From assembly GCA_030068145.1 (NCBI GenBank), contig JAPJBO010000483.1, positions 106,490-170,489 on the forward strand: 64,000 bases of DNA. Reading direction: 5' to 3'. The position numbers and the translations under genes are program-made. Shown here piece by piece: positions 12,534 through 63,312 of the stretch. Each line of letters opens with the position of its first letter. Within the stretch, counting starts at the first letter, position 1. The notes beneath the pieces are model-generated. The model searched no databases. It was given only the letters and a program-made list of their open reading frames with translations, and was not told the DNA's origin. Source of the stretch: Diplonema papillatum. Its lineage: Eukaryota; Euglenozoa; Diplonemea; Diplonemida; Diplonemidae.

Positions 12534-12937
12534 TCTTCTTCCGCTTTCGGGGTTCGTTTTTGTTTCTTGTATAAGCACCTGCTTTGTAGGAAATACTTGA
12601 GGAGACTGCCAGCTGCAAAAGATCAAGGAGGTAAATGTGCTGTAGCCCACACGAAACACAGGTGAATCTGGGTTCAGTAGCGGGCATAAGCGTTCAACAA
12701 AGAAGACCCACTTTGTAGTTGTAATGTTTTCTCCCCCTCTAGCCTCCTTCGAAATGAGCACAATGCAGTCCCTGAGTATTTCTTCTTCTATCTACAAATA
12801 TACCATGCAGGGTCAAAACCTTGTGTCTTTTTGGTAAACGCTGCCGCGGGGCCGATGGCCACTAAGAAAAAACTTTGGAAGAAAAAGAATTGCTCAACTT
12901 CATCAAAAATCACCGCGGTTTTTGTTCGAAATTTATT

Positions 12938-13085
12938 GGTAAATTTCCCTTATATCCCACCCCAAACAAATTTGTGCCCTTATATCCCACTTCAAACAAA
13001 TTTTGTGCCCTTATATCCCACTTCAAACAAATTTTGTGCCCTTATATCCCAGATTGGGATATAAGGGCACAAAATTTGTTTGGTC
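12938..13085. repeat. Minisatellite arm, left (GTGCCCTTATATCCCA unit)
   Basis: About four ~31-bp direct units, the last immediately followed by its reverse complement (ATTGGGATATAAGGGCAC), so the array ends in a local palindrome. The same unit in opposite orientation is found at 16058-16170, making these the inner arms of the composite. Confidence 0.9.
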
Positions 13086-13904
13086 GTGTAAAAAGTCTTT
13101 TGAGGGAACCGAACCGGCCACCTGTGGTGCCGGTGGCGTGCGTGCTTTGACTCGGCCCCAACGTCCAAAAATTCCAGTTCTGTTCTGTTCTGTAGGGCGG
13201 AACGAAGCCCGGGCAAGACGAGGCAAGACGGTCCCTAACGGGCAAGCGTACAGTGGTTCTTTGTGCCACCATTTACTCCGTTGTGTTGTTTGTGATGGAG
13301 TGATGACTGCTACTTGTTCGTTTATCGGTTTTTTGTTTCACGTAAATTTTTTTCCTTCTGGCTGGTTCTCGTTATTGGGTTCGCTTTCTGGTAATGGTTT
13401 TCGGTTTACGTAAATTGGTTCACTCTCTGATAACGGTTTTCGGTTCACGTAAAAGTTTGAGGTCCTTCTCCAAGTCCGAGGGCGTGGTCAGGGCGCGCAG
13501 CTTTTCATGTTTCAATGCTGTCTCCTCCGAGCCGTACCTTCTCGGGTGAGCATCGGACCTCAGTTTTGTTTGCGATGATAACGGGTTCATGTTCTCTTCT
13601 TCTCTTGTTCGCCGTTTGTTTTTCGCTTCGCTTTGCCTTCATTTCGTCGCTCTTCGTGGTTGCTTCGACGTCGGGGGTCGGCCGTCACGCAGTCACGGTC
13701 GTGACTGTTCCTCGGACGCGCTCTCGTGGGCCGGGGGGGTTGTCCCTCCGACGGACGAGGCGGGGCCCAGTATGCGGTGGTTGAGTCGGGGCCGAGTCCG
13801 ATTACGGGCGTGCAAAACCGCTGGCCTCGAGTTCGCGTGTTCGTGTCGCGGTTCTCGTGGCGGGCGGGCGGGATTCGGTGGGCTACTCGTCGGGTGTGGC
13901 TTTT

Positions 13905-14295
13905 CCAGGCCAAAATTTTCGACCAAAATTTGCCCCAACATTTTGCCCACAAATTTTTGTCCAACGAGATTTTGACCAAAAATCTGGACGCAAAAAAATC
14001 GACCAAAAATTTCGACCAAAAATGTCGACACCACAAAATTGGACCCCAAAAATTTGGACCCAAAATTTCGACCAAAAATTTCGATGCCAAAAAATCGGAC
14101 CCCAAAATTTTCGACCAGAAATTTGGACCAAAAAATTGGACCAAAAATCTCGACCAAAAATTTGGACCCAAAATTTCGACCAAAGATTTGGACCCCAAAA
14201 AATTGGACCAAAAATCTCGACCAAAATTTTCGACCCCAAAAATTTGGACCCCAGAAAATTCGACCAAAAAATTCGACCAAATTTTTTGACCCAGC
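13905..14295. repeat. Degenerate array of GACCAAAAATTT words
   Basis: Nearly 400 bases made of words such as TCGACCAAAAATTT, TTGGACCCAAAATTT and CGACCAAAATTT at 12-20 base spacing. The core AAAATTT is self-complementary, so both strands read alike, and all six frames give spurious low-complexity ORFs (runs such as FDQKFGPK). Confidence 0.9.
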
Positions 14296-15950
14296 CCCTT
14301 CCATTCGTTTTTGGTGTTTCCTTGTCTGTAGGCATAAAGCTGGCTTCAATACGCCACCCGAGACGTCTCAAGACGTTCTGGGTGCCTCAGAGCGACTGGT
14401 TGCACCGTTTCACAACTTCAAGCTGGCCACCGCAGCCACACTCGATCCCCGATCGGGTGCCTCAAGCAAGTACTCAAGAGAACCACATCAGAGCCAGGTG
14501 CCTGGCTGCACCGTCTGACCGTGCGGCGTGTCACGGAGTGCCACGCTGACGTTCGGGGCTATTCGCGGTGACAGAACTGTAGTAGCTGGCCAGATGCTAC
14601 GCGAGACAACTGATCTCATCAGACATGATCCGTTTCTTGGCCTGACATACCAGTGACCACGGTCATTCTCCACTGTCCTTGTTGAGGCTGTGTCACACTG
14701 TGACTGTCACACTCACAGTGTCAGTGACCGGACAGTGTCGCGGCAGCCGTAAACTGCACACCCACCTGCAGGATTCACCTCCAGAACACAGGATATCGCT
14801 ATAGCTGTCCGACTCCGAGTGCCTGGAGTGGAGAGGCTGGACAATGGAGCAGCAGCTGCAGCAAAGCAGCAGGACCGGGACTACTGGCTCAGTGCCAGTG
14901 GAGTGAAGGCGCCGCTGTCACACGGCTGTGAGTCAGCCACAGTCACAGCTGATTTCACTTACGCAGTGAAGCCTGCAGTGAAGGGAGCTGTGTCCACCGT
15001 CGTGCAAGGCGTTACCCCGCATGTCGGAGCACTGGGCAACGAGGCAGCTCTTGACTGCAGCTGGGCAAGGCGCGACGGAGTCCCAGAACGCGGACCAGGG
15101 CCGGATACGAACGAACCCGGTTTTAACATGCTTCCGATGAACTCGGAATCCAGTAACCATCGCATGTTGGTCCGGAGAGCGGGAAAATCGTGCAGGAGCG
15201 CTTCGTGACTGAACGGCGGAGCCGTCGAAGCTATTTCACCTTCATAGGATGCCTTCGTTACGCGTTTTCCACTGCTGGCGTCCAACCAACCGTTGGCGTA
15301 GTCGTAACCCTGGAGGATCTTGTCCAGGTGGCGCGGCCACAATGGAGCGGTCGTTCAGTCGGTTTTCTGCAGCAGGCGTGGGCACAACGACAGTTGATGA
15401 CTTCAGGAAGGAATCAGCCATTCTTGCGTGAGCTGCAGATTCCGTCTGTCGGCAACAGTGTCCGACTGTGTCGCTGTTAGCCCACCGTCCTCCGCGCTTC
15501 TGGCCATCTGTCTTGTAATCTGGGTTCAGTCCGAGTTTGGTTTCCTATCCGAGGCTATCGGGCACTGGTTCGGTTTCGGGTTCGGTTCTGCCACCATCAC
15601 TCCTCACCCGAACTTCTGGGTTCGGGTTCGATTTCGGGTTTGGCTCGCCGTGGGCGTCAACTCGCGACACGTGATGTCTCCATGTCACTGCCAATGTCAG
15701 CGTGGAATGGCAACGCCACCTTTAGCTGTTGTTCCTGTCTGAGCACTCAAACTTTGAGTCAAAGCGCACGCGCCCGCTCTCCTCCTTCGTTCGCTGCGAG
15801 TACGCACGAGACTGACACGTGGTCAAAGTTTTCGCTTGTCCAGCTATGCTGCGAGTCAGCACGACTGACAACGCGGGATGAAGTCCATCAACCGTGAGCT
15901 GACTCAAGGTCAGGGTTTGAACAAGGCCGCCTTTTTTTTCGCCGTAGGTA

Positions 15951-16022
15951 TCCGGATGGTCGAGCCAACCACCCTTGGGTTTCAAGGTGAGTGGTCGGGG
16001 GTTCAATCCCCTCCTCGGCAAG
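15951..16022 (+). repeat. tRNA-like (box A / box B) unit, probably SINE-derived
   Basis: The stretch has a Pol III box-A-like GGATGGTCGAGCC and a perfect box B (GGTTCAATCCC). A four-base-pair stem around GGGTTTC sits where an anticodon arm would be, but position 33 is not U and the acceptor ends do not pair well, so it is not a functional tRNA. Most likely the head of a tRNA-derived SINE or a tRNA pseudogene carried inside element C1. Confidence 0.5.
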
Positions 16023-16057
16023 TTTTCCAGCATTTTCCTCGATTCAAATTTGTCAAA

Positions 16058-16170
16058 ACAAATTTGTGCCCTTATATCCCAGTTTGGGATATAAGGGCAC
16101 AAAATTTGTTTGAAGTGGGATATAAGGGCACAAATTTGTTTTGAGTGGGATATAAGGGCATTACACCAAA
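16058..16170. repeat. Minisatellite arm, right (inverted copy of 12938-13085)
   Basis: Begins with one unit reading TTTGTGCCCTTATATCCCA, then switches to the reverse complement and runs as GGGATATAAGGGCAC units to the edge. It therefore mirrors the left arm, including the palindromic turn at its inner end. Confidence 0.9.
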
Positions 16171-16272
16171 TTTATTTTTTTCAAAACCCCAACTTTTTTC
16201 CAGAAGAAATGGGTGGCCATTTTTTTTTTGGGTCTAAATCCCTTTTACCAAAAAGACACAAGGACCCTGCAT

Positions 16273-17184
16273 AAGGTTATTGCGTGATTGCGTGAGGTCT
16301 TCTTGCCTATTGTCGCTCGTTAGTTCTCTGACCTGCAGTTGTGGGAGGCTTGGGGCCTCCTCGGCAGCGTTGCGGGTCCTTCAGACACCTGCCGTTTACG
16401 TTTTAGCATCCATTCCGTGCTTATTGGCCCAGTCTAGGGCCCGCTTGCTCCACCTAACCCATTCTGAAGCTGATCTGGCAGACTGTGGCAAAATAGTTAG
16501 TGCTGCCTGTTGTCAGCCCCCGTCGTGACCCCTCCCAGTACCAGCGGAGCGGTGGCCCGCCGCCTGGCCTCGCGAACCCCTACGAACGCCACGTTTTCGC
16601 GGCAGGCTTCAATGTTTCCAACTCTGAGCAGCATGACGGTAGGAGCCCCTGTGAGAACGATCTCACCTGGGCTTTTGGCTTTTTTCTAGTGAAACACGCG
16701 CCCCTAGCAGAGACACTTCAGCCCACCTACAACACCGCTGCAAGCGCTGAAAGAGCAAAAGAGGGGGATGAAATTCAGGAACACCTTCCCTGTTTTGTCG
16801 TCTTTCTGATTTCGGCCCGCAGCACTCCCTCCTTAGGCAATAAAGTGTTAAACAGAACCGAGCACAGGTATCCGGGTGGAAGCCAGGGTTAGCGCTGCGC
16901 TGCTCGGTGTAGTGGCGATGGAAGGGAGTCTCTGCCATTGCGTGCGGCTCTGCCACCTCGGATCTGTCCGGACGCGCCGGAGACATAACAGAAAAAAGGC
17001 AGGATTGTACACTGTGTTTGAGGGTGTTGCCACGCTCCTGACGAACTTTATCTGTGGATATTTCATTCTACTTCTTGGGCAGGGAGTATTCCAAGGTTCC
17101 GGGTCTGAATGACGTTCCGCAATGTTTTCTCGAGTTTTTTCTGCATCTGAGGATGCTCTTTCCCCCTACATGAGCACGGAATGC
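16273..17184. other. Intergenic, no gene recognised
   Basis: Mixed-composition sequence between two transposons. Only short ORFs (up to 130 codons) without domain patterns or signals. Nothing supported. Confidence 0.5.
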
Positions 17185-17190
17185 CGTACT

Positions 17191-18800: not shown

Positions 18801-18806
18801 CGTACT

Positions 18807-23073: not shown

Positions 23074-23096
23074 GCTTTTTTTGCCCCTGGAAATTG

Positions 23097-23175: not shown

Positions 23176-23269
23176 TGGTTCTCCTTGGTCTTCGGTCAAT
23201 TCCCTCGCTCCGGGGTTTTCTTGACCCGTGATTTGGCACCGGGTATTTGCATACTTCAGGCCCGGACGG

Positions 23270-34308: not shown

Positions 34309-34364
34309 ATGGGTTTCTGACTTCTTTTTCGCAACCTCTGTTCCAACAACATAGCAGGTTCTCT

Positions 34365-36925: not shown

Positions 36926-38254
36926 CATGCAGGGTCAAAACCTTGTGTCTTTTTGAAAATGGCAAAAAAAAAAATTCCGGAAAAAAATTGGGTTTTTTGA
37001 ATTTTAAAATTTTGGAACAAACTCTGCGGGAATTCTACTTCGGCACCTTGCACTTGTCACTTTGAACCAAGAAAGGTAGAAAGAGGAGCAGTGGCATTAC
37101 TAGCGATGGGGTAAACCCCGCAGAGGCCTTAGAGAGTGAGAGAAGATGGCTACTGCGAGGTCACCACCTACCCAAAAGCAAATTGATTTGCCCAAACAAC
37201 CCAAGTACCCTGTACGTTTAGGTGCCTCAAGGATTCCCTCGATGAATCGGGATAATTTTTGCGGAAGTTGAGCAAATTTTTTTTTTGCCAAAAAAAAATT
37301 ATGGTTAAAAAAAAAAACTGGATCAATTTTTTGATCCAGTTTGTGGTGTGTGTGTGGGTGTATTGTGAGCCTGGATCAAAAAAAACTGGATCAATGTCAT
37401 CAAAAAAACTGGAATAAAAACTGGATCAACTTTCCTGGTCAAAAAACTGGATCAAACTTTGATCCAGTTTTTTTCAGGTGGGTACACCTGGATCAAAAAA
37501 AACTGGATCAATAAAAACTGGATCAAAAAAAACTGGGTCAAAATAAACTGGATCAAAAAAAACTGGGTCAAAAAAAACTGGATCAGCTTTTTTGGTCAGT
37601 TTCTGGACCAAAAAGTTGTTAGAAGGGTCACTCAACAGCTCAGCACAAGTGCTGCCCATTCACACCCACCTCACTCAACCCACCCACCCCACTCACACCC
37701 ACCCACACCACAGCCACTCACACCCACACCACCCATTCACACCCACCTCACTCACACCCACACCACCCACCTCACCCACCCACACCACTTTCACCCACAG
37801 CCACTCACACCCACACCCCCCACACCACCCATTCACACCCACCTCACTCACCCTCACTCAACCCACCCACACCACTTTCACCCACAGCCACTCACACCCA
37901 CACCCACCTCACTCATCCTTTCACATCACCTCACTCACACCCCACACACCCACCTCACCCACCCCACACCCACACACCCACCTCACTCAACCCACCCACA
38001 TCACTCACTCCACCTCACAATACACCCACACACACACCACAAACTGGATCAAAAAATTGATCCAGTTTTTTTTTTGACCATAATGATCCAGCTTTTTTTG
38101 ATCATTGATCCAGTTTGTATTGATCCAGATTGGGTTGATCCAGACCTGCCTAATTTTTGATGAAGTTGAGCAATTTTTTTTCCAACTTTTTTTTTTGGGG
38201 TCCATCGGCTCTGCAGGAGCGTTTTAAAAAGACACAAGGTTTTGACCCTGCATG
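36926..38254. mobile_element. CATGCAGGG-family composite TIR element C2 (1.3 kb)
   Basis: Left end CATGCAGGGTC with the family's subterminal AAAATTTTGGAACAAACTCTG segment (37006-37026); right end GACCCTGCATG at 38254 preceded by the CATCGGC..GAGCGTTTTAAAAAGACAC segment. Flanks are TTAC and GTAA, which are inverted rather than direct repeats, so the ends may come from a recombined pair. The interior is an inverted minisatellite pair: AAAAAACTGGATCAA units (37300-37600) and GATCCAGTTTTTTTT units (38040-38145), surrounding a CACCCACCTCACTCAC array (37655-38030). No coding capacity. Confidence 0.8.
37655..38035. repeat. C-rich array (CACACCCACCTCACTCACC)
   Basis: About 380 bases of irregular CACCCACCTCACTCA and CCACACCACCCATT words with almost no G on this strand, lying between the two CTGGATC arms of element C2. 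Translated Pro/Thr/His ORFs here are artefacts of the repeat. Confidence 0.9.
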
Positions 38255-38261
38255 GTAATGA

Positions 38262-39649: not shown

Positions 39650-41490
39650 GGCCAGACGACTGTTTAGTGTTGCAAACGAATCGCAAACACGCTGAAGTTG
39701 GGACTCCCACACACTGAAATCAAGTGCTCCTAGGCAGACGAACTGTTAGTGTTGTGAACGAATCGCAAACACGCTGAGATTGGGACCCCACACACTGAAA
39801 TCGACTGAGAACAACCTGAGCGATCTCTCTTAATAAAATATTTAAGCGCCGAAGGCGCAACCACCCAATCCAACTTTGTACACACGAAACAGAGATCTTA
39901 TGAATCAACGAAAAGCGAGCAAAAAGTAGCTTGTAAAACCGGAACAAGTCGGAAACCCCATCGGGGGAAAGCACGAGATGCAGGTGCTCCAAGGCCAGAC
40001 GACTGTATAGTGTTGCAAACGAATCGCAAACACGCTGAAGTTGGGACTCCCACACACTGAAATCAAGTGCTCCTAGGCAGACGAACTGTTAGTGTTGCGA
40101 ACGAATCGCAAACACGCTGAGATTGGGACCCCACACACTGAAATCGACTGAGAACAACCTGAGCGATCTCTCTTAATAAAATATTTAAGCGCCGAAGGCG
40201 CAACCACCCAATCCAACTTTGTACACACGAAACAGAGATCTTATGAATCAACGAAAAGCGAGCAAAAAGTAGCTTGTAAAACCGGAACAAGTCGGAAACC
40301 CCGTCGGGGGAAAGTACGACCTGCAAGTGCTCCAAGGCCAGACGACTGTATAGTTGCAAACGAATCGCAAACGCGCTGAAGTTGGGACTCCCACACACTG
40401 AAATCAAGTGCTCCTAGGCAGACGAACTGTTAGTGTTGCGAACGAATCGCAAACACACTGAGATTGGGACCCCACACACTGAAAGCGACTGGGAACAACC
40501 TGAGCGATCTCTCTTAATAAAAGATTGAAGCGCCGAAGCCAACCACCCAATCCGACTTTGTACACGACAACAGGGAATCAGCGGGAAAGTGCACGAAAAG
40601 ATGCTACGGCATACCACTGATCAGCCAACAAGAACTGGTTCCGAGGCTGTTTCAATGTCCTGTATGGTGCTTGCATATTGTATCAGCGAAAAGTGCACTT
40701 CAAAAAGTACCTGAACCTTCCACAGATCGGCAATGACTCCCATACCATGCAGGGTCAAAACCTTGTGTCTTTTTGAAAATGGCCAAAAAAAAAAAATCGG
40801 AAAAAAATGGGTTTTTTGAATTTTAAAAGTTTGGAACAAACTCTGCAGTAATTTTTGAGGAAGTTGAGCAAAATTTTTTTTTTCCAAATTTTTTTTTAGG
40901 GCTCCATCGGCCCCGACACAAGGTTTTGACCCTGCATGATACCGCTTCTGGTGCGGCTTCTCTGCTTCCAACATTCCTGTGTGGTGATGTAGGGGGGTTG
41001 GGTTTCATCCTCCAAGCGAGTGGATGCGAACACCGCTTGTAGCCCACGATATCAGGGTTGTGCTGCCCCGACACTCAAACGACCTTCAAGTGCTTCAAGG
41101 CCAGACGACAGTTTAATGTTGCAAACGAATCACAAACACGCTGAAGTTGGCACCCCACACACTAAAATCAAGTGCTCCTAGGCAGACGAATTGTTAGTGT
41201 TGCGAACGAATCGCAAACTAACTGATATTGGGACCCCACACACTGAAATCGACTGAGAACAACCTGAGCGATCTCTCTTAATAAAAGATTCTAGCGCCGA
41301 AGGCGCAAGCACCCAATCCGACTTTGTGTACAAAGTCGGATCGAAACAGAGATCTTATGAATCAACGAAAAGCGAGCAAAAAGTAGCCTGTAAAACCGGA
41401 ACAAGTCGGAAACCCCGTCGGGGAAAGTACGACCTTCAAGTGCTCCAAGGCCAGACGACTGTATAGTGTTGCGAACGAATCGCAAACTCA
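39650..41490. repeat. Left-arm ~345-bp tandem units of foldback A
   Basis: Units begin near GGCCAGACGACTG and include TCGCAAACACGCTGA, CACACACTGAAATC, CCTGAGCGATCTCTCTTAAT, the hairpin GCGCCGAAGGCGC and AACAGAGATCTTATGAATC. Three near-complete units occur, then a variant block interrupted by a short CATGCAGGG element. The right arms carry the same units in reverse orientation. Confidence 0.9.
40746..40938. mobile_element. Short CATGCAGGG-family element (193 bp)
   Basis: CATGCAGGGTC at the left, GACCCTGCATG at the right, flanked by ATAC on both sides (40742-40745, 40939-40942). The paralogous sequence at 39520-39535 shows the empty site CCCATACCGCTTC, which proves a 4-bp duplication. A short deletion removed part of the right subterminal region. 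Non-coding. Confidence 0.92.
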
Positions 41491-41735: not shown

Positions 41736-41954
41736 CATGCAGGGTCAAAACCTTGTGTCTTTTTAAAACGCTCCCGCGGAGCCGATGGACCCCAAAAAAA
41801 AAGTTGGAAAAAAAAATTTTGCTCAACTTCCAATCAAAAATTGCTGCGAGCTTTGTGTCCATAATTTTTAAAGAAATTCAAATAAAACCAATTTTTTTCC
41901 AGAATTTTTTTTTTGGCCATTTCCAAAAAGAGCACAAGGTTTTGACCCTGCATG
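41736..41954. mobile_element. Short CATGCAGGG-family element (219 bp) in hAT 5' region
   Basis: Complete copy with CATGCAGGGTC and GACCCTGCATG ends and the family's internal words. The flanks TATA and GTAA do not match, so the target duplication has decayed or the copy is recombinant. It lies 64 bases upstream of the transposase start and could affect its promoter. Confidence 0.85.
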
Positions 41955-48777: not shown

Positions 48778-48784
48778 TTGGTCA

Positions 48785-49090: not shown

Positions 49091-49126
49091 CGATAAGGTC
49101 TCATGAGACGGTATCGGGACCGCCGC

Positions 49127-50291
49127 CCTTCACCTGCCGCAGATCCAGCACCAAACTTTGGTCCAAAGGGGTTTCCTGCAGGCACAGTGCTCGGGAACCT
49201 CACACAAGACGGACTTGCACGACCAGACGATCCGCGTTACACTAGTGCATCAAGCAAGACATGGGACTTCCATGTCTACTTTCAGGTTCTCGAAGACGGG
49301 CTAGCCATGTGTCGTTTGGAAGGGTGCACACACATGCCAAAGATGCGCAACGAGAAGGGAACACCAAAACGCCACTACGATACGTACCACAACCACGAGG
49401 CGATTGAGGCAGCAAAGCGAGGCATCCGGGAGAGGGCTGAAGAGAGAAAGAGAAAAGCGGAAGCAGCAGCAAACGAGAAGGCGAGCACCGCGAAGCAGCG
49501 TCGCATTGCTGTTTCGCCAACAGTGCGGGGGTTGCCACTGGATGAGCATGTTGTCTTCACGTTTGCCAAGCACCACCTCCCGTTCCACATCATTGAGTCG
49601 CCGGACTTTCGTTCTCTGCTCAAGGCAGATGTCATCATGACGAGACGCGAACTCAGCCAGAAGACAGCGCTGCTTGCAGAGAAGCTCATGACAGAGCTCT
49701 TCGCCTCACTTGCCGGGGAAGATGTCTGCCTCCTCGTGGATGCGGCAACGAAATGCCGCAGAACATTTCTTGGTGTGTCCCTCGCCTGTGGAAACACAGT
49801 GTATCACTACGGTGATATAGAGGTGAAGTGTTCAATGACTGCTGCAGCTATCGCTGGATGCCTGGACAAGATTCTGGATACACTCACCGAAGGGGGGATC
49901 ACCGTTGTTGGTGCTGTGGCGGACAACGCAGCGGCGATGCAGAGCGCACTGGACCAGCTGGGGGACGAAAGTGAATCGGACGAGTCGGAAGCAGAGCAAG
50001 ACGCAGACGGGATGCCTGCCGAGGATGCGCTGAATGCGACAAGAGAGCACCTTGCTTATCGTGGGCTCCTCGTCTTTCGGTGTGGGGCCCACAGCCTCCA
50101 GCTTGTCCTCAAGGACATCTTCGACATCGACCGCTTCTCAGCGTTCAAGAAAAGATTCCTTGTCGAAAACGAAAAGTACGTGCACAAGGAGGGGGCAGAA
50201 CAACTGAAGGCAGCCCAGGCAGAAGCTCAGGTTCCTAACACTCAGATCAAAGGACTTCGTTGCTTCACCACTGTGAGATGGAACAGTATGT
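49127..50291 (+). pseudogene. hAT transposase, BED finger and catalytic core
   Basis: Continues the frame of 42019-42397 through the duplicated Pro-Ser-Pro codons. A BED-type finger comes first: WDFHVYFQV, CRLEGC, then KRHYDTYHNH (C-x4-C and H-x4-H). A basic coiled stretch follows (REGAEERKRKAE-like). The hAT catalytic core has LLVDAATKCRRTFLGVSL (first Asp), GAVADNAAAM (second Asp, the T/VDNA motif) and FRCGAHSLQLVLKD (conserved C..H), ending with FTTVRWNS (RW motif). An acidic insertion with SESDESEAEQDADG separates them. The ORF's own Met at 49103 lies in the foldback end and is not genuine. The gene is cut again at 50292 by a short CATGCAGGG element. Confidence 0.88.
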
Positions 50292-50503
50292 CATGCAGGG
50301 TCAAAACCTTGTGTCTTTTTAAAACGCTCCCGCGGGGCCGATGGACCCCAAAAAAAAATTTTGGAAAAAAAAAATTTGCTCAACTTCCTCAAAAAGTACT
50401 GCAGAGTTTGTTCCAAACTTTTAAAATTCAAAAAACCCACTTTTTTTCCGGAAAATTTTTTTTTTGCCATTTTCAAAAAGACACAAGGTTTTGACCCTGC
50501 ATG
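50292..50503. mobile_element. Short CATGCAGGG-family element (212 bp) in hAT gene
   Basis: Perfect CATGCAGGGTC/GACCCTGCATG ends, flanked by ATGT on both sides (50288-50291, 50504-50507). Deleting the element and one ATGT restores an in-frame W-N-S-M-Y-D-A-M-L-R. As it stands the ORF runs into the element and stops at 50494. I found no convincing splice sites at its edges. Confidence 0.93.
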
Positions 50504-51195: not shown

Positions 51196-51779
51196 CATGC
51201 AGGGTCAGAACCTTGTGTCTTTTTGGAAATGGCCAAAATTTTAGTTCCAGAAAAAAAATGGGTTTTTTGAATTTTAAAATTTTGGAACAAACTCTGCGGG
51301 AATAAGGCACTTCCTCGGAATCGCAGAACACCTTTTGGTCCATGTCGCGGGGGCTCCCAGGGAAACAGAGAGGTAGGAAGAAGGGAGCTGACAATATTTT
51401 ATTCTCTTGGGTGTCAACCCAAGCACTTGCTGAAGCGAATGGGGATCTTAACGGGGGAAAGGACGAGCGATGCCTTCTTGCGAGGCGCTGCAGTCATCCC
51501 AGGGATGGGTGGGTGGGAAAAACAAAAGAGTCGAGGGACGAGGAAACCTTTCGGTGTTTAGTATGTACACTAAAACAAGGATCAATCATCTCTGCTCTCG
51601 GTCGCTATTTATTCCCGCAGGGAGCCTGAGAGAATAAGCCACTTCCTCGGAATCGCAGAACACCTTTTGGTCCATGTCGCGGGGGCTCCCAGGGAAACAG
51701 AGAGGTAGGAAGAAGGGAGCTGACAATATTTTATTCTCTTGGGTGTCAACCCAAGCACTTGCTGAAGCGAATGGGGATC

Positions 51780-53375
51780 TTAACGGGGGAAAGGACGAGC
51801 GATGCCTTCTTGCGAGGCGCTGCAGTCATCCTCACCGCGCGTAAAGAAACCCCGTAACGCTCGTTCAACAGAATGCCTTCCCTCTCGGGAGGCAAAAACT
51901 TCCGGCGAGACTCTCGAAGGGACGTCCGCCGGGTTCTCCTTTGAGCGGACCCACGACACCGAGAACGGACAGTTCAACTCGTGTAAGCGTGTCATTGCCG
52001 ACACGACTGCGTCGTTCAAACGCTGGCTGGCAGTGCACATCTTCTTCCGTGCAACTGCGGCCACCGTTGTGTTGTCCACGCGGACATCGACGCTTCCGAC
52101 CCCGCTTTGCGGCAACACGGCTATGGCTCGCTCAAAAGCCAAGGCCTCGAGCTCGTTTATGTGCAGGGCACCTTCGGATTTAGTCCAGGACCCACCGAAG
52201 ACGTGCATCTCACCAGTCTCGCGCGAAACAATCACGGCACCCCAGCCCTTCAACGAGGCATCCACAAAAATAAGAAACGAAGGTCCATCGGACTCAGAGG
52301 GAGGCAGGGAGGGAGAAAGAACACGTGCCTTGTGAACCGAACGAATCCAATCTTTCAATTCAGAGGCTGCACAGCGGGGCACTTGAACTTTGTCAGCCGG
52401 TGTCCGCGAACATCGATTCAGCGAGTTCGTGACCCGCCGCAGAAACTTCAACGCCCACCAAAAGGAACCGGGAAACACTCCAGAGATTGAGCTTGCGTGA
52501 AGCAGCCGTCCCCCTAGAGACTCCAGTTCTCCAGCCGTGATGCAAGACAAGTCGGCCTTGTCAAGCTTCCCGAGCAGCTTCTCTGACGGGGCGACCGTGT
52601 TGGCGCCGTGATCGAAGTCGACTCCGATGAAGTCGTATCGACATACCCCGTCGTTGCTGTCTGCTTCTTTCCATGAGGCATTTGCCTCCTTCGCCAAACA
52701 ATCCATTTTCATTGTGTGGGCGGCGATCTCACGGGCGGAACCGTACAACCGGATGTTGTCAATCCAGGCATGTACACCCACGTTCTTTGCCGCGTGCTCT
52801 GGAGCAACAAAGGCCGGATCCGCGGCCAATACCGATGTCAGCGTGTGCATGATCTCTGGTGCACAGCTGTGGCCCATTGGCAACCGATTCATTTCGTACC
52901 AGGTCCCCGAGTCGTCTACGAAACGAAAATGCTTTCTTGACTCGGGTGGGATCTCTACCTGATAGAAACCTGTCCGCAGGTCGCGGGTTGTCGCACACTC
53001 GCCGAGTACCGCGTCGAGGTATTCTGACACGTGCCCCAGTGGGACATAGGCTTCATAGCCCTCGCTCTTTAGAGCGGAATTAGCTTCCTGGGTCCACAAA
53101 ATAAAACGCTGTCGCATTCCTGTCGGCTTTTCTTCCACGACAGTGAACGGGACAGTTTCCAAGGTTCCTGGGGCTTGCGCTACTGAAGCAATACCGTTCT
53201 CGACGAGGGTTCGCGCGTGCGACCCTTGGAACATAGAGCATCGGGGTGTCTCTTTTTGACGCACGTTTTCTTCTTTTTTCAAGCAGGTTTTTGGTTGGAA
53301 GGTGGTGTTCCACACGGACTCAAAACGATCGCGGACGCTTTTCCGCATCCGGTTCTTCAAGAAATCAACACGCAT
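51780..53375 (-). CDS. Reverse transcriptase / RNase H of the complete YR element
   Basis: About 531 residues from the Met at 53375 (MRVDFLKNRM), 129 bases after the recombinase stop; the frame is open up to 54905 (1041 residues), overlapping all of YR and the end of Gag. RT landmarks: MRQRFILWTQEAN, TTRDLRTGFYQVEI, MNRLPMGHSCAPEIMHT and AWIDNIRLYG. The conserved LESLGGRLLHASSISGVFPG connector follows. RNase H shows IFVDASLKGWGAVI, HINELEALAF, RVDNTTVAAVARKK and ENPADVPSRVSP. Its stop codon lies inside repeat A, as in the fragment at 36343. No methylase or esterase domain. Confidence 0.87.
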   Translation of the reverse strand: MRVDFLKNRMRKSVRDRFESVWNTTFQPKTCLKKEENVRQKETPRCSMFQGSHARTLVENGIASVAQAPGTLETVPFTVVEEKPTGMRQRFILWTQEANSALKSEGYEAYVPLGHVSEYLDAVLGECATTRDLRTGFYQVEIPPESRKHFRFVDDSGTWYEMNRLPMGHSCAPEIMHTLTSVLAADPAFVAPEHAAKNVGVHAWIDNIRLYGSAREIAAHTMKMDCLAKEANASWKEADSNDGVCRYDFIGVDFDHGANTVAPSEKLLGKLDKADLSCITAGELESLGGRLLHASSISGVFPGSFWWALKFLRRVTNSLNRCSRTPADKVQVPRCAASELKDWIRSVHKARVLSPSLPPSESDGPSFLIFVDASLKGWGAVIVSRETGEMHVFGGSWTKSEGALHINELEALAFERAIAVLPQSGVGSVDVRVDNTTVAAVARKKMCTASQRLNDAVVSAMTRLHELNCPFSVSWVRSKENPADVPSRVSPEVFASREGRHSVERALRGFFTRGEDDCSASQEGIARPFPR

Positions 53376-53503
53376 GGGTGTAATGCTAGCAACGTGTAGC
53401 GGTGATTCCCGTTCCTCTGCCGTTCGAGGCAGGCGGGTCGCATGAGAGCGCCGTGTGATTGTATGGCGAGTTTTGAGAGGAGAGGGAGAGGCAGGAGGAG
53501 GAA

Positions 53504-54394
53504 TCACAAGAGGGCCGTCGCGTGGGCTGTTCCCAACGCTTCGGCCATTGCTACCGAATCGCTTCCGTAACGGAGCGTCATGTCGGGAATCCCACTCCCT
53601 TGGCCTTCTTTGTGTTTCGCGAGCCGTCCAATCAACTCTAGAGGCAACCTGGCCCCTTGCTCTACCGCCTTGAAAAGGTGTGTTGTGGCTCCCCGCTTGA
53701 TGCTGTGACCTGTAAAGCCGCGCATCTGGGGGTCTTTCTGCCACAAAAGTGCTAATTCTGCGGTTGTTACGGGACAGAGTTGATGGAACGGCTGCAGTGT
53801 TTGGAATAGGGAGGCGATCTCGGATGTCAAATCCCCAACCACCACAGCCCACCTTGAACGAGTGAACGGGTTGGATCTTCGCGACTTCGGAACTGAGGCC
53901 CAGTCTAAGACCACTTTTGAGTTTGTCACTTTCAAGAACTGGTGTGATCCTAACTGGGTCACTTCCCCCCAACGACTTGCGGTTTTCCACGCAAGAAGGG
54001 CCGCCAGCTGCAGCTCGGGTACTTGACGGCGTGCCCAAGCCACCAACTTTAATTTGGTTACCGGCCGGGCCTGGTGCACAGGAATGGCTCCCCCGACCGC
54101 TCTTAGTGCCCCCGCAAGACTGTGCAGGGACTGGGCAGGCATGCCGATATGCCGGAATGTCCCCGCTAATGCTTTTGCATAGGCGAGCTGTCCTTGCCGG
54201 CTGACCTTTGTAGCCAATACAAACAGAGCCGCCGAATCCGCGGTCAACTGCAATTTGTTTGCGGCTGTCCATCGGACTAACCGGGCCCACAAATACTGGC
54301 GCTGGGTCGAAGTGGACCTGGCCCACATTCGACTCACCAGCGATTCCAACTCTCCCCAGGCTTCCTTTGCTGGAACCACTGCTTCGTTGTTCAC
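53504..54394 (-). CDS. Tyrosine recombinase of the complete YR element
   Basis: 296 residues. Arg in WKTASRWGEV, HxxR in FTGHSIKRGATTHLF, then IGRLAKHKEG and the Tyr in DMTLRYGSDSVAM. It aligns along its length with 33163-34308 (shared SRQGQLAYAKA / IRRQGMLAYAKS and FRHIGMPAQSL / FRHMGVPNQPL). The RT frame stays open across it. It starts 222 bases after the Gag stop. Confidence 0.87.
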   Translation of the reverse strand: MNNEAVVPAKEAWGELESLVSRMWARSTSTQRQYLWARLVRWTAANKLQLTADSAALFVLATKVSRQGQLAYAKALAGTFRHIGMPAQSLHSLAGALRAVGGAIPVHQARPVTKLKLVAWARRQVPELQLAALLAWKTASRWGEVTQLGSHQFLKVTNSKVVLDWASVPKSRRSNPFTRSRWAVVVGDLTSEIASLFQTLQPFHQLCPVTTAELALLWQKDPQMRGFTGHSIKRGATTHLFKAVEQGARLPLELIGRLAKHKEGQGSGIPDMTLRYGSDSVAMAEALGTAHATALL

Positions 54395-54616
54395 TCTGGA
54401 GGCACGAGTAGGGGTGATTCTGTTTTCTTTTCCTTTTTCTTCTTTTCCTATTCGACTTTGAACAAGACGAAGGACTGCTCGTCCGAAGAGAGAAACGTTT
54501 GGCGGTGAGCCTTCGTCGAATGCGCCGAAGGGCGGGGTGCTCCTTCTTCTGCGGGACGTCGAGCGTAGCCGAGGAAACGCCCTTGCGCGTGCCGGGTGAA
54601 GCGGGGAAGAAGCTAG

Positions 54617-55609
54617 TCAATGCCTCCCCCCCGCCTCTGCGTTTCCCGTCCGTGTTCGCGGTTTGGCCGTCTTCTGACGAGAAGGGAAAGCTGGCACGTT
54701 CTTGGCGGGGGAACACGACGCAGCTGCACGCAGCACCTCGTGAATCGAGGTGTCCTCCTTCTCCAAGCGCTGTTGCAGCACTGCCCGTGGAACCCTGTCC
54801 CGCACGAAACAGAACTGCAGCAACACTTGCCGCAAAAGGAAGTTGCCCAGAGTCAAATGGTGGGTTTTCCACCAATCCTCCATCTCCGAGGCGGCGAAGA
54901 TCCAATGGCGAAGAGCAGTGAACGCGTCTTGGAGGATTTTACCCCCCGTCGAGCTGAGATACGGCACGACCCATCGGCCCTCTAGCTGCAAGACCAGACG
55001 GTGGGGATCATCTTCAACTTCGTTCACCCACTCCTTCACACCTGCAACGTCTGCAGGGTGTCTCCGAGGAACCTCTCCCATCATCGCATCGCGGGGTCCG
55101 TCTACAGCTTGCTGCTGAACCAGGGCCTCCATCGCCGCAAGTCGCTGCCGCAGACTAGCAACCTCGTGTTGCTGTCGCTCCTGCGATTTCCGCACGAACG
55201 CCTCTGCCGCCTCCGTCTGGTGGACCGACGCCTCCACCACGCGGCTGTACTCCCACTCGGGGTGCGGCATCTGGACCGTTTCCTCGGGTCCGTCGTGGGG
55301 CTCTACCGTGTCAAGGTAGTTGAAAGCCTCACTCCGCCGCACAACATACGGAGGAACTGCCGCACCTCCCTCACTACGTCCCAAGACCCCAGCGTACATG
55401 CCGTAGTCCACGGTGCCCTTTCTTCTACACCGGTACACGATCAGCTTCCCCACCAAGGCTTCCACCTGGTCGCGCAACATGCGTTCCGACATGCTCATAG
55501 GGGCTGGCATTCCTTGCCCTGCTGTTGCCGATGGAGAGACCGACCGGGCCCGTGCAGTCTGCACTTCGCTCATCGAAAAAAGCTGGGCAATATCTGGTTC
55601 ATCTTCCAT
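54617..55609 (-). CDS. Gag-like protein of the complete YR element
   Basis: 330 residues, starting at the Met MEDEPDIAQLFSM immediately inside repeat B. It carries the same blocks as the Gag at 32102: TARARSVSPSATAGQ, MLRDQVEALVGKLIVYR, YSRVVEASVHQTEAAE, a Gln/Arg/Glu coiled coil (residues about 155-190) and DPHRLVLQLEGRW. The C-terminus is basic (SRQKTAKPRTRTGNAE) without a zinc knuckle. It is the presumed nucleic-acid-binding structural protein of the element. Confidence 0.82.
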   Translation of the reverse strand: MEDEPDIAQLFSMSEVQTARARSVSPSATAGQGMPAPMSMSERMLRDQVEALVGKLIVYRCRRKGTVDYGMYAGVLGRSEGGAAVPPYVVRRSEAFNYLDTVEPHDGPEETVQMPHPEWEYSRVVEASVHQTEAAEAFVRKSQERQQHEVASLRQRLAAMEALVQQQAVDGPRDAMMGEVPRRHPADVAGVKEWVNEVEDDPHRLVLQLEGRWVVPYLSSTGGKILQDAFTALRHWIFAASEMEDWWKTHHLTLGNFLLRQVLLQFCFVRDRVPRAVLQQRLEKEDTSIHEVLRAAASCSPAKNVPAFPSRQKTAKPRTRTGNAEAGGRH

Positions 55610-55884
55610 ATTGGGTGGATGGGAAAAACAAAAGAGTCGAGGGACGAGGAAACCTTTCGGTGTTTAGTATGTACACTAAAACAAGGATCAATCATCTCTG
55701 CTCTCGGTCGCTATTTATTCCCGCAGGGAGCCTGAGATAATTTTTGCGGAAGTTGAGCAATTTTTTTTTTTGCCAAATTTTTTTTTTGGGGTCCATCGGC
55801 CCCGCGGGAGCGTTTTAAAAAGACACAAGGTTTTGACCCTGCATGGTATCACCGCCTAACAATGTTGCCCGGGCTCTTTACTGA

Positions 55885-57233: not shown

Positions 57234-57446
57234 CATGCAGGGTCAGAACCTTGTGTCTTTTTGGAAATGGCCAAAATTTTATTTCCAGAAAAAAAATGGG
57301 TTTTTTTGAATTTTAAAAGTTTGGAACAAACTCTGCGGTAATTTTTGCGGAAGTTGAGCAAAATTTTTTTTTGCCAATTTTTTTTTTTGGGGTCCATCGG
57401 CCCCGCGGGAGCGTTTTAAAAAGACACAAGGTTCTGACCCTGCATG
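57234..57446. mobile_element. Short CATGCAGGG-family element (213 bp)
   Basis: Flanked by ATAT on both sides (57230-57233, 57447-57450). Foldback B has the empty site CCACCTATATGTGTGG at 44776-44792. The left half uses GTCAGAACC and the right half GTTCTGACC, a subfamily variant shared with 58001 and 51196. Confidence 0.94.
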
Positions 57447-57779: not shown

Positions 57780-59821
57780 GTGTGGAGGTCGGATTGGGTG
57801 GTTGCGCCTTCGGCGCTTGAATCTTTTATCAAGAGAGATCGCTCAGGTTCTTCTCAGTCGATTTCAGTGTGTGGGGTCCCGATCTCAGCGTGTTTGCGAT
57901 TCGTTCGCAACACTAACAGTTCGTCTGCCTAGGAGCACTTGATTTCAGTGTGTGGGGGTCCCAACTTCAGCGTGTTTGCGATTCGTTTGCAACACTATAC
58001 CATGCAGGGTCAGAACCTTGTGTCTTTTTAAAACGCTCCTGCGGAGCCGATGGCCTCCAAAAAAAAAAGTTGGAAAAAAAAAATTTTGCTCAACTTCCTC
58101 AAAAATTACTGCAGAGTTTGTTCCAAACTTTTAAAATTCAAAAAACCCAATATTTTTCCGGAAATAAAATTTTGGCCATTTCCAAAAAGACACAAGGTTA
58201 TGACCCTGCATGATACAGTCGTCTGGTCTTGGAGCACTTGAAGGTCGTATTTTCCCGTCTTTTTCCTAGTTTTTCGCCGACTGTCTTTCCGTCTTTTACC
58301 GGGTTTTACACGCTCTTTTTCGCTCGCTTTTCGTTGATTCATAAGATCTCTGTTTCGTGTGTACATAGTTGGATTGGGTGGTTGCGCCTTCGGCGCTTGA
58401 ATCTTTTATCAAGAGAGATCGCTCAGGTTGTTCTCAGTCGATTTCAGTGTGTGGGGTCCCGATCTCAGCGTGTTTGCGATTCGTTCGCAACACTAACAGT
58501 TCGTCTGCCTAGGAGCACTTGATTTCAGTGTGTGGGGGTCCCAACTTCAGCGTGTTTGCGATTCGTTTGCAACACTATGCAGTCGTCTGGCCTTGGAGCA
58601 CTTGAAGGTCGTATTTTCCCGTCTTTTTTCCAAGTTTTTCGCCGACTGTCTTTCCGACTTTTCCCGGGTTTTTCACGCTCTTTTTCGCTCGCTTTTCGTT
58701 GATTCATAAGATCTCTGTTTCGTGTGTACAAAGTCAGATTGGGTGCTTGCGCCTTCGGCGCTTGAATCTTTTATTAAGAGAGATCGCTCAGGTTCTTCTC
58801 AGTCGATTTCAGTGTGTGGGGTCCCGATCTCAGCGTGTTTGCGATTCGTTCGCAACACTAACAGTTCGTCTGCCTAGGAGCACTTGATTTCAGTGTGTGG
58901 GAGTCCCAACTTCAGCGTGTTTGCGATTCGTTTGCAACACTATACAGTCGTCTGGCCTTGGAGCACTTGAAGGTCGTATTTTCCCGTCTTTTTCCTAGTT
59001 TTTCGCCGACTGTCTTTCCGACTTTTCCCGGGTTTTACACGCTCTTTTTCGCTCGCTTTTCGTTGATTCATAAGATCTCTGTTTCGTGTGTACATAGTTG
59101 GATTGGGTGGTTGCGCCTTCAGCGCTTGAATCTTTTATCAAGAGAGATCGCTCAGGTTGTTCTCAGTCGATTTCAGTGTGTGGGGTCCCGATCTCAGCGT
59201 GTTTGCGATTCGTTCGCAACACTAACAGTTCGTCTGCCTAGGAGCACTTGATTTCAGTGTGTGGGGGTCCCAACTTCAGCGTGTTTGCGATTCGTTTGCA
59301 ACACTATACAGTCGTCTGGCCTTGGAGCACTTGAAGGTCGTATTTTCCCGTCTTTTTCCTAGTTTTTCGCCGACTGTCTTTCCGACTTTTCCCGGGTTTT
59401 ACACGCTCTTTTTCGCTCGCTTTTCGTTGATTCATAAGATCTCTGTTTCGTGTGTACATAGTTGGATTGGGTGGTTGCGCCTTCGGCGCTTGAATCTTTT
59501 ATTAAGAGAGATCGCTCAGGTTGTTCTCAGTCGATTTCAGTGTGTGGGGTCCCGATCTCAGCGTGTTTGCGATTCGTTCGCAACACTAACAGTTCGTCTG
59601 CCTAGGAGCACTTGATTTCAGTGTGTGGGGGTCCCAACTTCAGTGTGTTTGCGATTCGTTTGCAACACTATGCAGTCGTCTGGCCTTGGAGCACTTGAAG
59701 GTCGTATTTTCCCGTCTTTTTCCTAGTTTTTCGCCGACTGTCTTTCCGACTTTTACCGGGTTTTACACGCTCTTTTTCGCTCGCTTTTCGTTGATTCATA
59801 AGATCTCTGTTTCGTGTGTAC
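57780..59821. repeat. Right-arm ~365-bp tandem units of foldback A
   Basis: Units starting near 57791, 58373, 58736, 59099 and 59463 in the same orientation as 45250-47780. The two unit variants alternate at first and then the GTTGGATTGGG variant repeats. The first unit is interrupted by a CATGCAGGG element at 58001. Confidence 0.93.
58001..58212. mobile_element. Short CATGCAGGG-family element (212 bp)
   Basis: Flanked by ATAC on both sides (57997-58000, 58213-58216). Neighbouring tandem units show the empty site AACACTATACAGTCGTC, so the 4-bp duplication is certain. Non-coding. Confidence 0.95.
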
Positions 59822-60414
59822 CATGCAGGGTCAAAACCTTGTGTCTTTTTGGAAATGGCAAAAAAAAAAAATTCCGGAGAAAATTTGGGTTATTTGAATT
59901 TTAAAATTTTGGAACAAACTCTGCGGTAATTTTTGAGGAAGTTGAGCAAATTTTTTTTTCCCCAAAATTTTTTCTCTCACTCTGAGAAGTTTTTTTCACT
60001 GGCAGTGGGCAAAAAACCAATTTTACCCACTGTGTTTTTTTCACTAGTGAAAAAAAAAATTTTTTTTTCACTAGTGAAAAAAAACACCCAGTTTTTTTTT
60101 CACTAGTGAAAAAAAAACTTTTTTTCTTCACTAGGGAAGGTGTAAAAAACATTTTGGTAAACACTGTTTACCGATTTTTCAGAAAAGGGGGGGGGGGGTC
60201 GGTAAACATTCACTGTACTGTGGGTCGGGCCTGGCGTGTCGCTCTCTATAGTGCGTCTTCGTCACAACCACGTAGCCTGTTTGAGGCGGGGGGGCCTCCA
60301 AGCGAACACTTTTGAAGCCGGACAACCTGCATACGTCTGTTTTTCAGTGGGGACAACCTCCGAACCTTGGCCTTGGACGTGCGGTAACAACGTCCCAACA
60401 TTGGATAGGTAGGA

Positions 60415-61490
60415 TTTAGAGGTTGTCCCATCTCGAAAACAAGGTTTTAGAGGTTGTCCCACTTCGAAAACAAACCTTTAGAGGTTCTCCCACCTCGAAA
60501 ACAAACTTTTAGAGGTTGTCCCACCTCGAAAACAAACTTTTAGAGGTTGTCCCACCTCGAAAGCAAGCTTTAAGAGGTTGTCCCACCTCGAAAACAAGCT
60601 TTTAGAGGTTGTCCCACCTCGAAAGCAAGCTTTTAGAGGTTGTCCCACCTCGAAAACAAACTTTTAGAGGTTGTCCCACTTCGAAAACAAGCTTTTAGAG
60701 GTTGTCCCACCTCGAAAACAAGCTTTTAGAGGTTGTCCCACCACGAAAACAAGCTTTTAGAGGTTGTCCCACTTCGAAAACAAGCTTTTAGAGGTTGTCC
60801 CACTTCGAAAACAAGCTTTTAGAGGTTGTCCCACCTCGAAAACAAGCTTTTAGAGGTTGTCCCACCTCGAAAACAAGCTTTTAGAGGTTGTCCCACTCGA
60901 AAACAAGCTTTTAGAGGTTGTCCCACCTCGAAAGCAAGCTTTTAGAGGTTGTCCCACTTCGAAAACAAGCTTTTAGAGGTTGTCCCACTTCGAAAACAAG
61001 CTTTTAGAGGTTGTCCCACCTCGAAAACAAGCTTTTAGAGGTTGTCCCACCTCGAAAACAAGCTTTTAGAGGTTGTCCCACTTCGAAAACAAGCTTTTAG
61101 AGGTTGTCCCACTTCGAAAACAAGCTTTTAGAGGTTGTCCCACCTCGAAAACAAGCTTTTAGAGGTTGTCCCACCACGAAAACAAGCTTTTAGAGGTTGT
61201 CCCACTTCGAAAACAAGCTTTTAGAGGTTGTCCCACTTCGAAAACAAACTTTTAGAGGTTGTCCCACCTCGAAAACAAGCTTTTAGAGGTTGTCCCACTT
61301 CGAAAACAAACTTTAGAGGTTGTCCCACCTCGAAAACAAACTTTTAGAGGTTGTCCCACCTCGAAAACAAGCTTTTAGAGGTTGTCCCACCTCGAAAGCA
61401 AGCTTTTAGAGGTTGTCCCACCTCGAAAACAAACTTTTAGAGGTTGTCCCACCTCGAAAACAAACTTTTAGAGGTTGTCCCACCGCGAAT
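60415..61490. repeat. 31-bp minisatellite, left arm
   Basis: About 35 near-identical head-to-tail 31-bp units beginning AGAGGTTGTCCCACCTCG and continuing with AAAACAAGCTTTT. Common variants are ACTTCG and ACCACG. There are no spacers between units, so it is not a CRISPR array. Confidence 0.97.
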
Positions 61491-61979
61491 ACAAGCTTTA
61501 TACGTAGGGCATAACAAATACACACCAGGATTCCTCTGCTGACTGGCGTGGAGACCCCTTTTTCTCCCCATGCGGGAGTAGGTGGCCGGCGAAGAATTTG
61601 CTGCGGTGGGACACTCACTATCCGAGGTGGGGCACGCTGCAAACCTAATCGTTCGAGGTGGGGCAACCTTCAACCATTGTTTTTCGAGATGGGACAACCT
61701 GCAAATCTTTGTTTCCTTGACGGGACAACCTTAAAAAAGATGTGGCAACCCACCAACCATTTTCTACGAACCTTAGTTTGGTAGTTGGTGCAACGTGCTA
61801 ACACTTGTTTCCTAGAGCCGTTTCCCATGGGACGACCTGCATACTTCAGTAGTTATTGAGCTCGGACAAAACTTCGAACTTGCACGTGGAATTGGCAATT
61901 CGTAGGGCTGGACATGCCGACATTCCCGGGCCGCAATTTTCTGCGAAGCTCAACTTGGAGGTGTGCCGTAATTGGATGC

Positions 61980-62460
61980 ATAGAACCTCTAAAAGCTTGT
62001 TTTCGAAGTGGGACAACCTCTAAAAGCTTGTTTTCGAAGTGGGACAACCTCTAAAAGCTTGTTTTCGAAGTGGGACAACCTCTAAAAGCCTGTTTTCGAG
62101 GTGGGACAACCTCTAAAAGTTTGTTTTCGAGGTGGGACAACCTCTAAAAGCTTGTTTTCGAGGTGGGACAACCTCTAAAAGTTTGTTTTCGAGGTGGGAC
62201 AACCTCTAAAAGTTTGTTTTCGAGGTGGGACAACCTCTAAAAGCTTGTTTTCGAGGTGGGACAACCTCTAAAAGCCTGTTTTCGAGGTGGGACAACCTCT
62301 AAACGTTTGTTTTCGAAGTGGGACAACCTCTAAAAGCTTGCTTTCGAGGTGGGACAACCTCTAAAAGCCTGTTTTCGAGGTGGGACAACCTCTAAAAGTT
62401 GGTTTTCGAAGTGGGACAATTTCTAAAACCTTGTTTTTGAAGTGGGACAACCTCTGAATC
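61980..62460. repeat. 31-bp minisatellite, right arm (inverted)
   Basis: About 15 units in the reverse orientation (GTGGGACAACCTCTAAAAGC). The ~490 bases between the two arms (61491-61979) contain degenerate related words (GGTGGGGCAACCTT, GATGGGACAACCTGC) and no gene. Confidence 0.96.
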
Positions 62461-62944
62461 CTGTCTTCCTTCTTCTTTTTTGCACCAGTGTGATGTACTT
62501 TCCTGTGCTCCTTTTGGTCTTTCTGAGCCCAAAACGCCTCAAAAAAAATTTCGCGCCTGCGGCGCGCTCTATCTCAGTCTACCTGGTAGTACCAGTGGGT
62601 CAGGTGAAAAACCGTGCCGTGCGCGGCAAACTATGCCGTGCGGCCAAGAGGGGGGGGGGGGGTCGGTAAACAATGTTTACCAAAATGTTTTTTACACCTT
62701 CCCCTAGTGAAAAAAAAAATTTTTTTTTTCACTGGTGCCAATTTTTTTTTTCCCCCATTTTTTTGGCTGAAAGTGGTCAAGAACAGGTCAAAAGTGCAGT
62801 TGTATGCAGTTTTGGCTGCCCCGGCTAAATCATGCTGAACCACGCCCCCCCCACCCAAACACACTACCAAACCAGCACTATCTGGTGGTGTGGCAAACCT
62901 GGCACCTGCCAGTTCAAAAAACTTCCATTGTGAGAGAAAAAAAG

Positions 62945-63238
62945 TCTCTCACTGGTCAAATGTGGTCGGAAATTGGGGAAAAATCCCCACTGTGCGTTCG
63001 TTTCTTGTTTTTCGGGTTTCGGGGGCCTTTCCGAGGTCCCTCGGGGGTGGAAAAGGCCTCTCGGCAGGGAAAACGGTCGCCACTCGGGACCCCTTCGGGG
63101 CCCCTCGTGGCGACCGTTTTCCCTGCCTCGAGGCCTTTTCCACCCCCTCGGGACCTCTACAAGGCCCCCTCAACCCGAAAAACAAAAACTCACTACAGTG
63201 GGTTTTCCCCAATTTCTCCCACTTTGACCAGTGAGAGA
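62945..63238. repeat. 294-bp hairpin (near-perfect palindrome)
   Basis: Outer stem TCTCTCACTGGTCAAA / TTTGACCAGTGAGAGA, then AATTGGGG..CCCCAATT, GGAAAAGGCCT..AGGCCTTTTCC and GGGAAAACGGTCGCCAC..GTGGCGACCGTTTTCCC, closing on ACCCCTTCGGGGCCCC near 63092. Both strands therefore give similar ORFs. It looks like a MITE-type foldback lodged in C3. No flanking duplication identified. Confidence 0.85.
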
Positions 63239-63312
63239 ACGTATATTTTTGGGGTCCATCGGCCCCGCGGGAGCGTTTCAAAAAGACACAATGTTTTGAC
63301 CCTGCATGGTAC

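Follow-up and report, generated by a model that had tools for sequence, protein, structure and literature searches.

Foldback-type Mutator-like elements (MULEs) such as Muta1 and Tm1 are already known to carry inverted repeat arrays at their two ends. In the portions of the descriptions drawn on here, Muta1 and other MULEs of Aedes aegypti have an 8-9-bp target duplication, terminal inverted repeats (TIRs) with subterminal tandem repeats (type 2 foldback) and many non-autonomous derivatives (PMC5225508), and the Mutator/Foldback family Tm1 of root-knot nematodes combines a 9-bp duplication with composite, repeat-bearing TIRs and occurs in transposase-bearing forms and in forms like miniature inverted-repeat transposable elements (MITEs) (PMC3169594). 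Related features are described, within those portions, for Galileo (P superfamily), with long, internally repeated TIRs and transposase-binding sites within the repeats (PMC3688188), for Rehavkus, an outgroup to MULEs with a 9-bp duplication and a minisatellite noted in a table at its C terminus (PMC6446971), and for the foldback element Tetris of Drosophila virilis, the building blocks of which are linked with satellite DNA (PMC4079207). Here we analyse a 64-kb stretch of the Diplonema papillatum genome (assembly GCA_030068145.1, contig JAPJBO010000483.1, positions 106,490 to 170,489; hereafter the window), in which nine insertions with shared CATGCAGGGTC ends lie within 12804-63308, three of them long and with minisatellites in their interiors.

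The D. papillatum genome paper reports, in the sections used here, more than 60 open reading frames resembling TATE, MULE and Helitron proteins and a top dispersed repeat of ~6000 copies, its authors stating that rigorous transposon identification is still to come; the words mite and minisatellite are absent from its main text (PMC10161547). MITE-like origins of introns have been suggested in other diplonemids, as far as the excerpt of that study goes (PMC12621601).

We report that the nine insertions are copies of a ~212-bp MITE and that the long composites among them are independent transposons nested in one another, a reading to which we assign a probability of about 0.9. The window contains 19 matches to CATGCAGGGTC with at most one mismatch (100 shuffles: mean 1.01, maximum 4), 18 of which are the termini of the nine insertions, the remaining one (30580) being unpaired. 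Over the 271-Mb assembly, to which all genome-wide counts refer, exact ends number 4381 + 4407 (8,788), and the reversed control pattern 37 + 29 (66). Of the nine, five are short (193-219 bp), one (51196-55845) is interrupted by a retroelement and three are long composites. These counts and controls agree with the initial annotation, which had recognised nine insertions with these ends, six of them ~0.2 kb including a split one and three long; its coordinates for the composites 36926-38254 and 59822-63308 also hold, and the first composite ends at 16273 rather than 16272, with one mismatch in its right end (TATGCAGGGTC). Each of the three interiors contains, as it had described, an inverted pair of tandem repeats according to Tandem Repeats Finder. 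In what follows, L-numbers denote fetched genome loci, C-numbers contigs, and positions in the MITE are consensus coordinates.

Nested elements in the composites

In the first composite (12804..16273, minus strand) a Mutator-like element, with termini of its own and flanked by a 9-bp duplication, is nested in a MITE. The MITE matches at both ends of the composite and is split into the halves 12804-12937 and 16168-16273, with outer flanks (ATAC/AGGT) that form no duplication. Between the halves lies a non-autonomous element of 3230 bp (12938..16167) with the 9-bp duplication AAATTTATT on each side, bounded by the ends GGTAAATTTCCCTTATATCCC and GGTGTAATGCCCTTATATCCC. The identical pair of ends bounds an element at L071, flanked by a separate 9-bp duplication, GAAAAAAAA; its open frame has 1001 codons and a PF10551 match at 48.6 bits (cut-off 27.6), and the encoded transposase matches a D. 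papillatum record with 100% identity over 87% of its length. The family includes, in this way, a MULE transposase, and both duplications are within the 8-11 bp of Mutator elements. Among the longest frames of the window copy none was recognised as that of a MULE transposase. The GGTGTAATGCCCTTATATCCC end has 164 + 185 matches genome-wide (reversed control 0), and at none of the first 20 places listed, where ~260 bases of flank were checked for a MITE match, is it in a MITE; by eye, the flanks beside it at these places are mostly A/T-rich. A 31-bp array forms the left subterminal repeat of the nested element (12947..13051, plus strand; unit also in L071) and an inverted 31-bp array stands at its right end (16085..16160, minus strand). 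The 31-bp minisatellite of this composite is the subterminal array of an L071-type MULE family.

At 59822..63308 (plus strand, duplication GTAC) a MITE, broken at about position 150 into the halves 59822-59973 and 63246-63308, contains two nested layers. The first (59974..63245), read from the sequence, has putative CTCTCACT/AGTGAGAG ends and CACTAGTG palindromes; the second (60134..62703; 2570 bp) has the ends GGGAAGGTGTAAAAAAC, the 3-bp duplication CTA on both sides and inverted 31-bp arrays (60415-61499/61984-62455). The search with the left interior gave 1574 candidates, 40 of which were scored, 38 besides the window and C2901. Of these, 34 begin at query 230-235, i.e. window 60129-60134 (the other four at 212-226). 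In a search with the right interior, 32 of 38 other copies stop at query 248-253, corresponding to window 62703-62708. Where both ends of other copies were read, the 3-bp duplication is exact in eight of ten, and MITE sequence was seen in none of the ten within ~40-60 bases of flank examined by eye. The element, 2,570 bp in the window, measures ~3.7-10.2 kb elsewhere in copies with both ends listed on one contig. The minisatellite at 59822 belongs, then, to an inserted element with its own ends and 3-bp duplication, and the composite is a case of nesting.

As to the identity of this inner element, its 3-bp duplication departs from the 8-11 bp of Mutator and rules out a MULE. CACTA elements have a 3-bp duplication and ends beginning CACTA or CACTG, and PIF/Harbinger elements a TWA duplication. 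The inner element agrees with CACTA in the length of its duplication (eight of ten copies and the window) but not in its ends (GGGAAGGTG), and its duplications (GTA, ATA, AAG, CTG, CAA, CGC, CCC, TTA, CTA) do not follow TWA. The flank of one of its copies (C108:315769-321236; L121, L122) resembles, by eye, the insert at L021:1195-1436, which is probably a further dispersed element.

The composite 36926..38254 is made up, in order, of MITE 1-105, a 223-bp element, MITE 106-144, an array foldback and MITE 106-213, and its flanks (TTAC/GTAA) form no duplication. Because MITE 106-144 is present twice and the outer flanks mismatch, its halves probably derive from two different MITEs that were joined. 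The 223-bp dispersed element (37030..37252; GAATTC...CGGGA) is without target duplication and has relatives among the split repeats that a longer element carries. In its 13 other scored matches the start falls at query 26-31 and the end at 253-259, and none of eight flank pairs, judged by eye, is in a MITE. The foldback (37292..38150) consists of CTGGATCAAAAAAAA arrays (37409-37585/38056-38144) with 72-bp inverted arms (97%). Four other loci with the CTGGATCAAAAAAAA array were read: at three the MITE is whole (duplications CTAA, GTAT and CTAC) and the array matches stand 34-310 bases outside it, and at the fourth (C1275) the MITE is truncated, so that at three of the four the CTGGATCA array is not MITE cargo.

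In the retroelement-split copy (51196..55845, plus strand, duplication GTAT) the MITE is interrupted at CTCTGCGG/TAAT by an element on the minus strand (51300..55737) with two overlapping frames, one sharing 40% and the other 49% identity with its counterpart in an element at 33042-35912. Its Pfam matches to reverse transcriptase and RNase H are below the cut-off, the second frame has no recombinase domain match, and a PDB sequence search with the frame gave no match; we take it to be DIRS-like, partly from its presumed architecture and a motif. The break falls on the same base in two diverged MITEs, at 37029/37030 and at 51299/51300, and the elements responsible, both DIRS-like or related, are different.

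Own ends and a target duplication, which the initial annotation regarded as the mark of an ordinary insertion if found in every interior, are present at 12804 and 59822; the composite at 36926 looks instead like a join of MITE halves. One family for all interiors is ruled out, since the 9-bp MULE, the 3-bp element and the DIRS-like elements differ.

The 212-bp MITE and its copies

From the window and the fetched loci together, 133 start-to-end rows were obtained, of which 27 were excluded as long or nested, and the remaining 106 short copies (150-260 bp) were scored. The commonest length is 212 bp (52/106), and the ends are 29 bp long and near-identical. An exact 4-bp target duplication flanks 92 of the 106 copies (shuffled pairing: mean 9.2, maximum 17), a share that is biased upward because 30 of the sampled loci (L029-L058) had been selected as the best matches of a single copy and lean to young copies. 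All but one of these 92 duplications have the form NTAN. Among the remaining copies nine are off by one base, three by two and two by three; at other lengths 15 copies match at 2 bp and none at 3 bp or 5-9 bp. From these statistics, the 212-bp CATG-ended element is a genuine MITE with a 4-bp NTAN target duplication: it is short, has inverted ends and many copies, and is non-coding as judged on length alone. Its copy number is ~4,400 (judged from exact ends), or ~0.34% of the genome (exact ends halved x 212 bp).

No autonomous parent was recognised among the fetched loci, and the parent search listed 21 genome ends with a different inner base. A literature search for an NTAN target site duplication in transposons gave no match, and literature searches, with the supplements of the genome paper outside their scope, found no description of the present MITE; residual interest lies in its 4-bp NTAN duplication without an assigned superfamily and in the recurrence of a ~30-bp array period. 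Tandem copies spaced by exactly 4 bp were observed at L013:1571-1575, L031:3109-3113, L033:742-746, L034:1712-1716, L036:2042-2046, L051:2358-2362 and at four places in L049, as if the target duplication of one copy had served as the insertion site of the next.

In the window, the 4-bp duplication is exact for six of the nine insertions, those at 12804, 36926 and 41736 having none. The short copies are 40746..40938 (plus strand, duplication ATAC), 41736..41954 (minus strand, flanks TATA/GTAA), 50292..50503 (minus strand, ATGT), 57234..57446 (plus strand, ATAT; the reference copy) and 58001..58212 (minus strand, ATAC). Satellite-like arrays with 343-364-bp units are present at 39630-40565, 43533-44537, 45261-47530 and 58213-59821, and array sequence lies on either side of the copy at 58001-58212. 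An open frame at 49097-50494, the 3' part of which enters the MITE at 50292, has a DUF659 match below the cut-off; we presume an association with hAT-type transposases.

Order of insertions and alternative explanations

Beyond the window, a pairing survey of the first 100 listed CATG ends gave 26 short pairs, 10 long pairs (380-4026 bp) and 28 unpaired ends. Three long pairs (L009, L020 and L022) contain MULE transposase pieces and inverted ~30-bp arrays with three different units, and the palindromic L010 matches the arms of the MULE at L070. L024 holds an open frame that we take, from a motif, to be recombinase-like, and L012, L021, L023, L025 and L027 hold short inserts. A MULE-domain search was also made, in which 150 of 245 candidates were scored and the rows listed exceed the cut-off. 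Tandem repeats within inverted ends, the hallmark of foldback elements, are present at 12804, 59822, L009, L010, L020, L022 and L069-L072, and were not seen in L067.

We propose the following order of events. The ~212-bp MITE, with its 29-bp ends and NTAN duplication, spread to ~4,400 copies, some of which later received insertions of MULEs with a 9-bp duplication, of the 3-bp-duplication element and of DIRS-like elements. At 12804 and 59822 the inserted DNA elements brought ~30-31-bp arrays near each of their ends, and an inverted minisatellite pair consequently appears inside the MITE. By analogy, these arrays may bind transposase.

Several observations weigh against nesting within MITEs as an account of every case. 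Two of the ten flank pairs of the inner element of 59822 are inexact (C564 is one base off and C483 shows no match), and the first layer of this composite (59974-60133 and 62704-63245) and the CTGGATCAAAAAAAA array in 36926 are delimited only provisionally. Composite 59822 is found again on contig C2901; this looks like a duplicated stretch and not a second jump, because MITE 57234 is repeated there too with identical flanks. Moreover, nesting is reversed at L070:158-7198, where a MULE frame of 1051 codons lies between 1.5-kb inverted arms (97%) and each arm contains a MITE (199 of 213 bp), and two of 14 L009-type MULEs stand behind CATG ends, leaving room for some preference for the T-run of the MITE.

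The arrangement at L070 implies that a MULE can take a MITE end along when it moves, and is one ground for supposing that MITEs enter MULE ends and that the MULE then carries their termini, giving CATG-flanked palindromes. L010 fits this in that it looks like two L070-type arms joined, as does L072, where a partial MITE is at the edge of MULE inverted repeats; at 12804, however, the 9-bp MULE duplication is inside the MITE, and as a general explanation we consider such capture possible but not likely.

A second alternative is that A/T runs of the MITE, or the CTCTGCGG/TAAT motif, are specifically favoured as a target. Eleven breaks could be placed in the MITE: at ~32 (L021), 45-55 (L025), 66-84 (12804), 105 (36926 and 51196) and, for six of them (L009, L020, L023, L038, L098 and 59822), within the T-run at 131-157. 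The initial annotation had offered, besides its preferred idea, foldback insertion at one favoured site within the MITE, to be checked by a common break point in every composite; foldback insertion is essentially right, and the single site is not, the 11 breaks being at several positions. The clustering of six in the T-run and the two at ~105, both from DIRS-like or related elements, speak for a preference, as does the share of L009-type MULEs in MITEs: the left end is visible at 14 of 20 places read, and at two of the 14 (L096 and L098; L009 not counted) the MULE is in a MITE, compared with the ~0.34% of the genome that MITEs occupy. On the other hand, copies of three other elements were in MITEs in 0/20, 0/10 and 0/8 cases (the last two by eye in ~40-60-base flanks), giving 2/52 for sampled copies of all four inserted elements, and the MULE flanks are mostly A/T-rich stretches from many origins. 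The MITE as favoured target is a weak, post hoc hint that T-runs alone may explain, and a specific landing site is in our view rather unlikely.

Least probable by far, and very nearly excluded, is the idea favoured in the initial annotation that the MITE is a shell, its CATG ends capturing or growing satellite arrays and moving with them as one unit: long CATG pairs often have outer NTAN duplications (L009, L010, L020, L022, 51196 and 59822, although the flanks of L010 are palindromic and its match therefore says little) and, within the first 100 ends listed, 10 of 36 close pairs exceed 260 bp, but such outer duplications are expected equally if insertion followed the landing of the MITE, two of the interiors, those of 12804 and 59822, possess termini and duplications of their own and are found elsewhere outside MITEs, the MULEs in L009, L096 and L098 are of one kind but the MITEs there differ in sequence and break, and no composite was seen twice in the fetched loci except the window repeat on C2901 (no systematic search was made). 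Nested insertion replaces the tempting notion of a satellite-ferrying MITE with an order of insertions.

Subterminal arrays and known systems

Arrays with 30-31-bp units are present near MULE ends at L009, L020, L022, L069, L070, L071 and L072, and also near the ends of the 59822 element. L068 has two 30-bp units only (by eye), and no ~30-bp inverted array was seen in the 9 kb of another MULE locus, L067. Compared with the transposase of L022, that of L067 has 98% identity, and those of L009, L020 and L068-L072 have 28-44%. Several array units contain CCTTATA or a near variant. In a shared-motif test of eight units, oriented inward by hand and compared with plain letter shuffles, the summed score was 366 (shuffles: 291, standard deviation 11.5, 0/500). 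This signal leans on few pairs, above all L022-L069, many pairs being no better than shuffles, and the pair L009-L069 scores equally high in the opposite orientation; we regard a shared motif as a hint only. It is conceivable, though doubtful, that MULEs and the unrelated 3-bp element follow a common design in which a 30-31-bp spacing (about three helical turns) would be kept while the unit sequence turns over, as if a transposase multimer read the spacing of the array; the lack of an array in L067 and the two units of L068 lowered the probability that we give to it. If true, transposon ends would have left many of the ~30-bp arrays in the genome as their footprints. The window has further 30-bp arrays outside CATG elements (38602-38968, 42456-42887 and 48789-49088), which contain ACCTTATC on one strand or CCCTTATC on the opposite one and are possibly the ends of further MULEs.

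The cause of the composites is an ordinary one, nested insertions, and their parts appear to be new families, each of a known kind. For several Diplonema transposon families, terminal sequences and target duplications are now given, and the nested elements suggest a source of many of the ~30-bp minisatellites in this genome.

Judged from the parts of their descriptions cited above, Muta1 is alike in its MULE transposase, 8-9-bp duplication and subterminal repeats, with a unit of 9-15 bp compared with ~30-31 bp in Diplonema. Tm1, compared by description only, differs in its unit of ~14 bp and its host, and Rehavkus, compared in the same way, shares the 9-bp duplication and a minisatellite with the 12804 element, the place of the minisatellite being different. 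Tetris and the Diplonema elements are both of foldback type and linked with repeats, the link of Tetris being to satellite DNA. Galileo has a P-type transposase, unlike the Diplonema MULEs, and by analogy with it a transposase may bind the Diplonema arrays.

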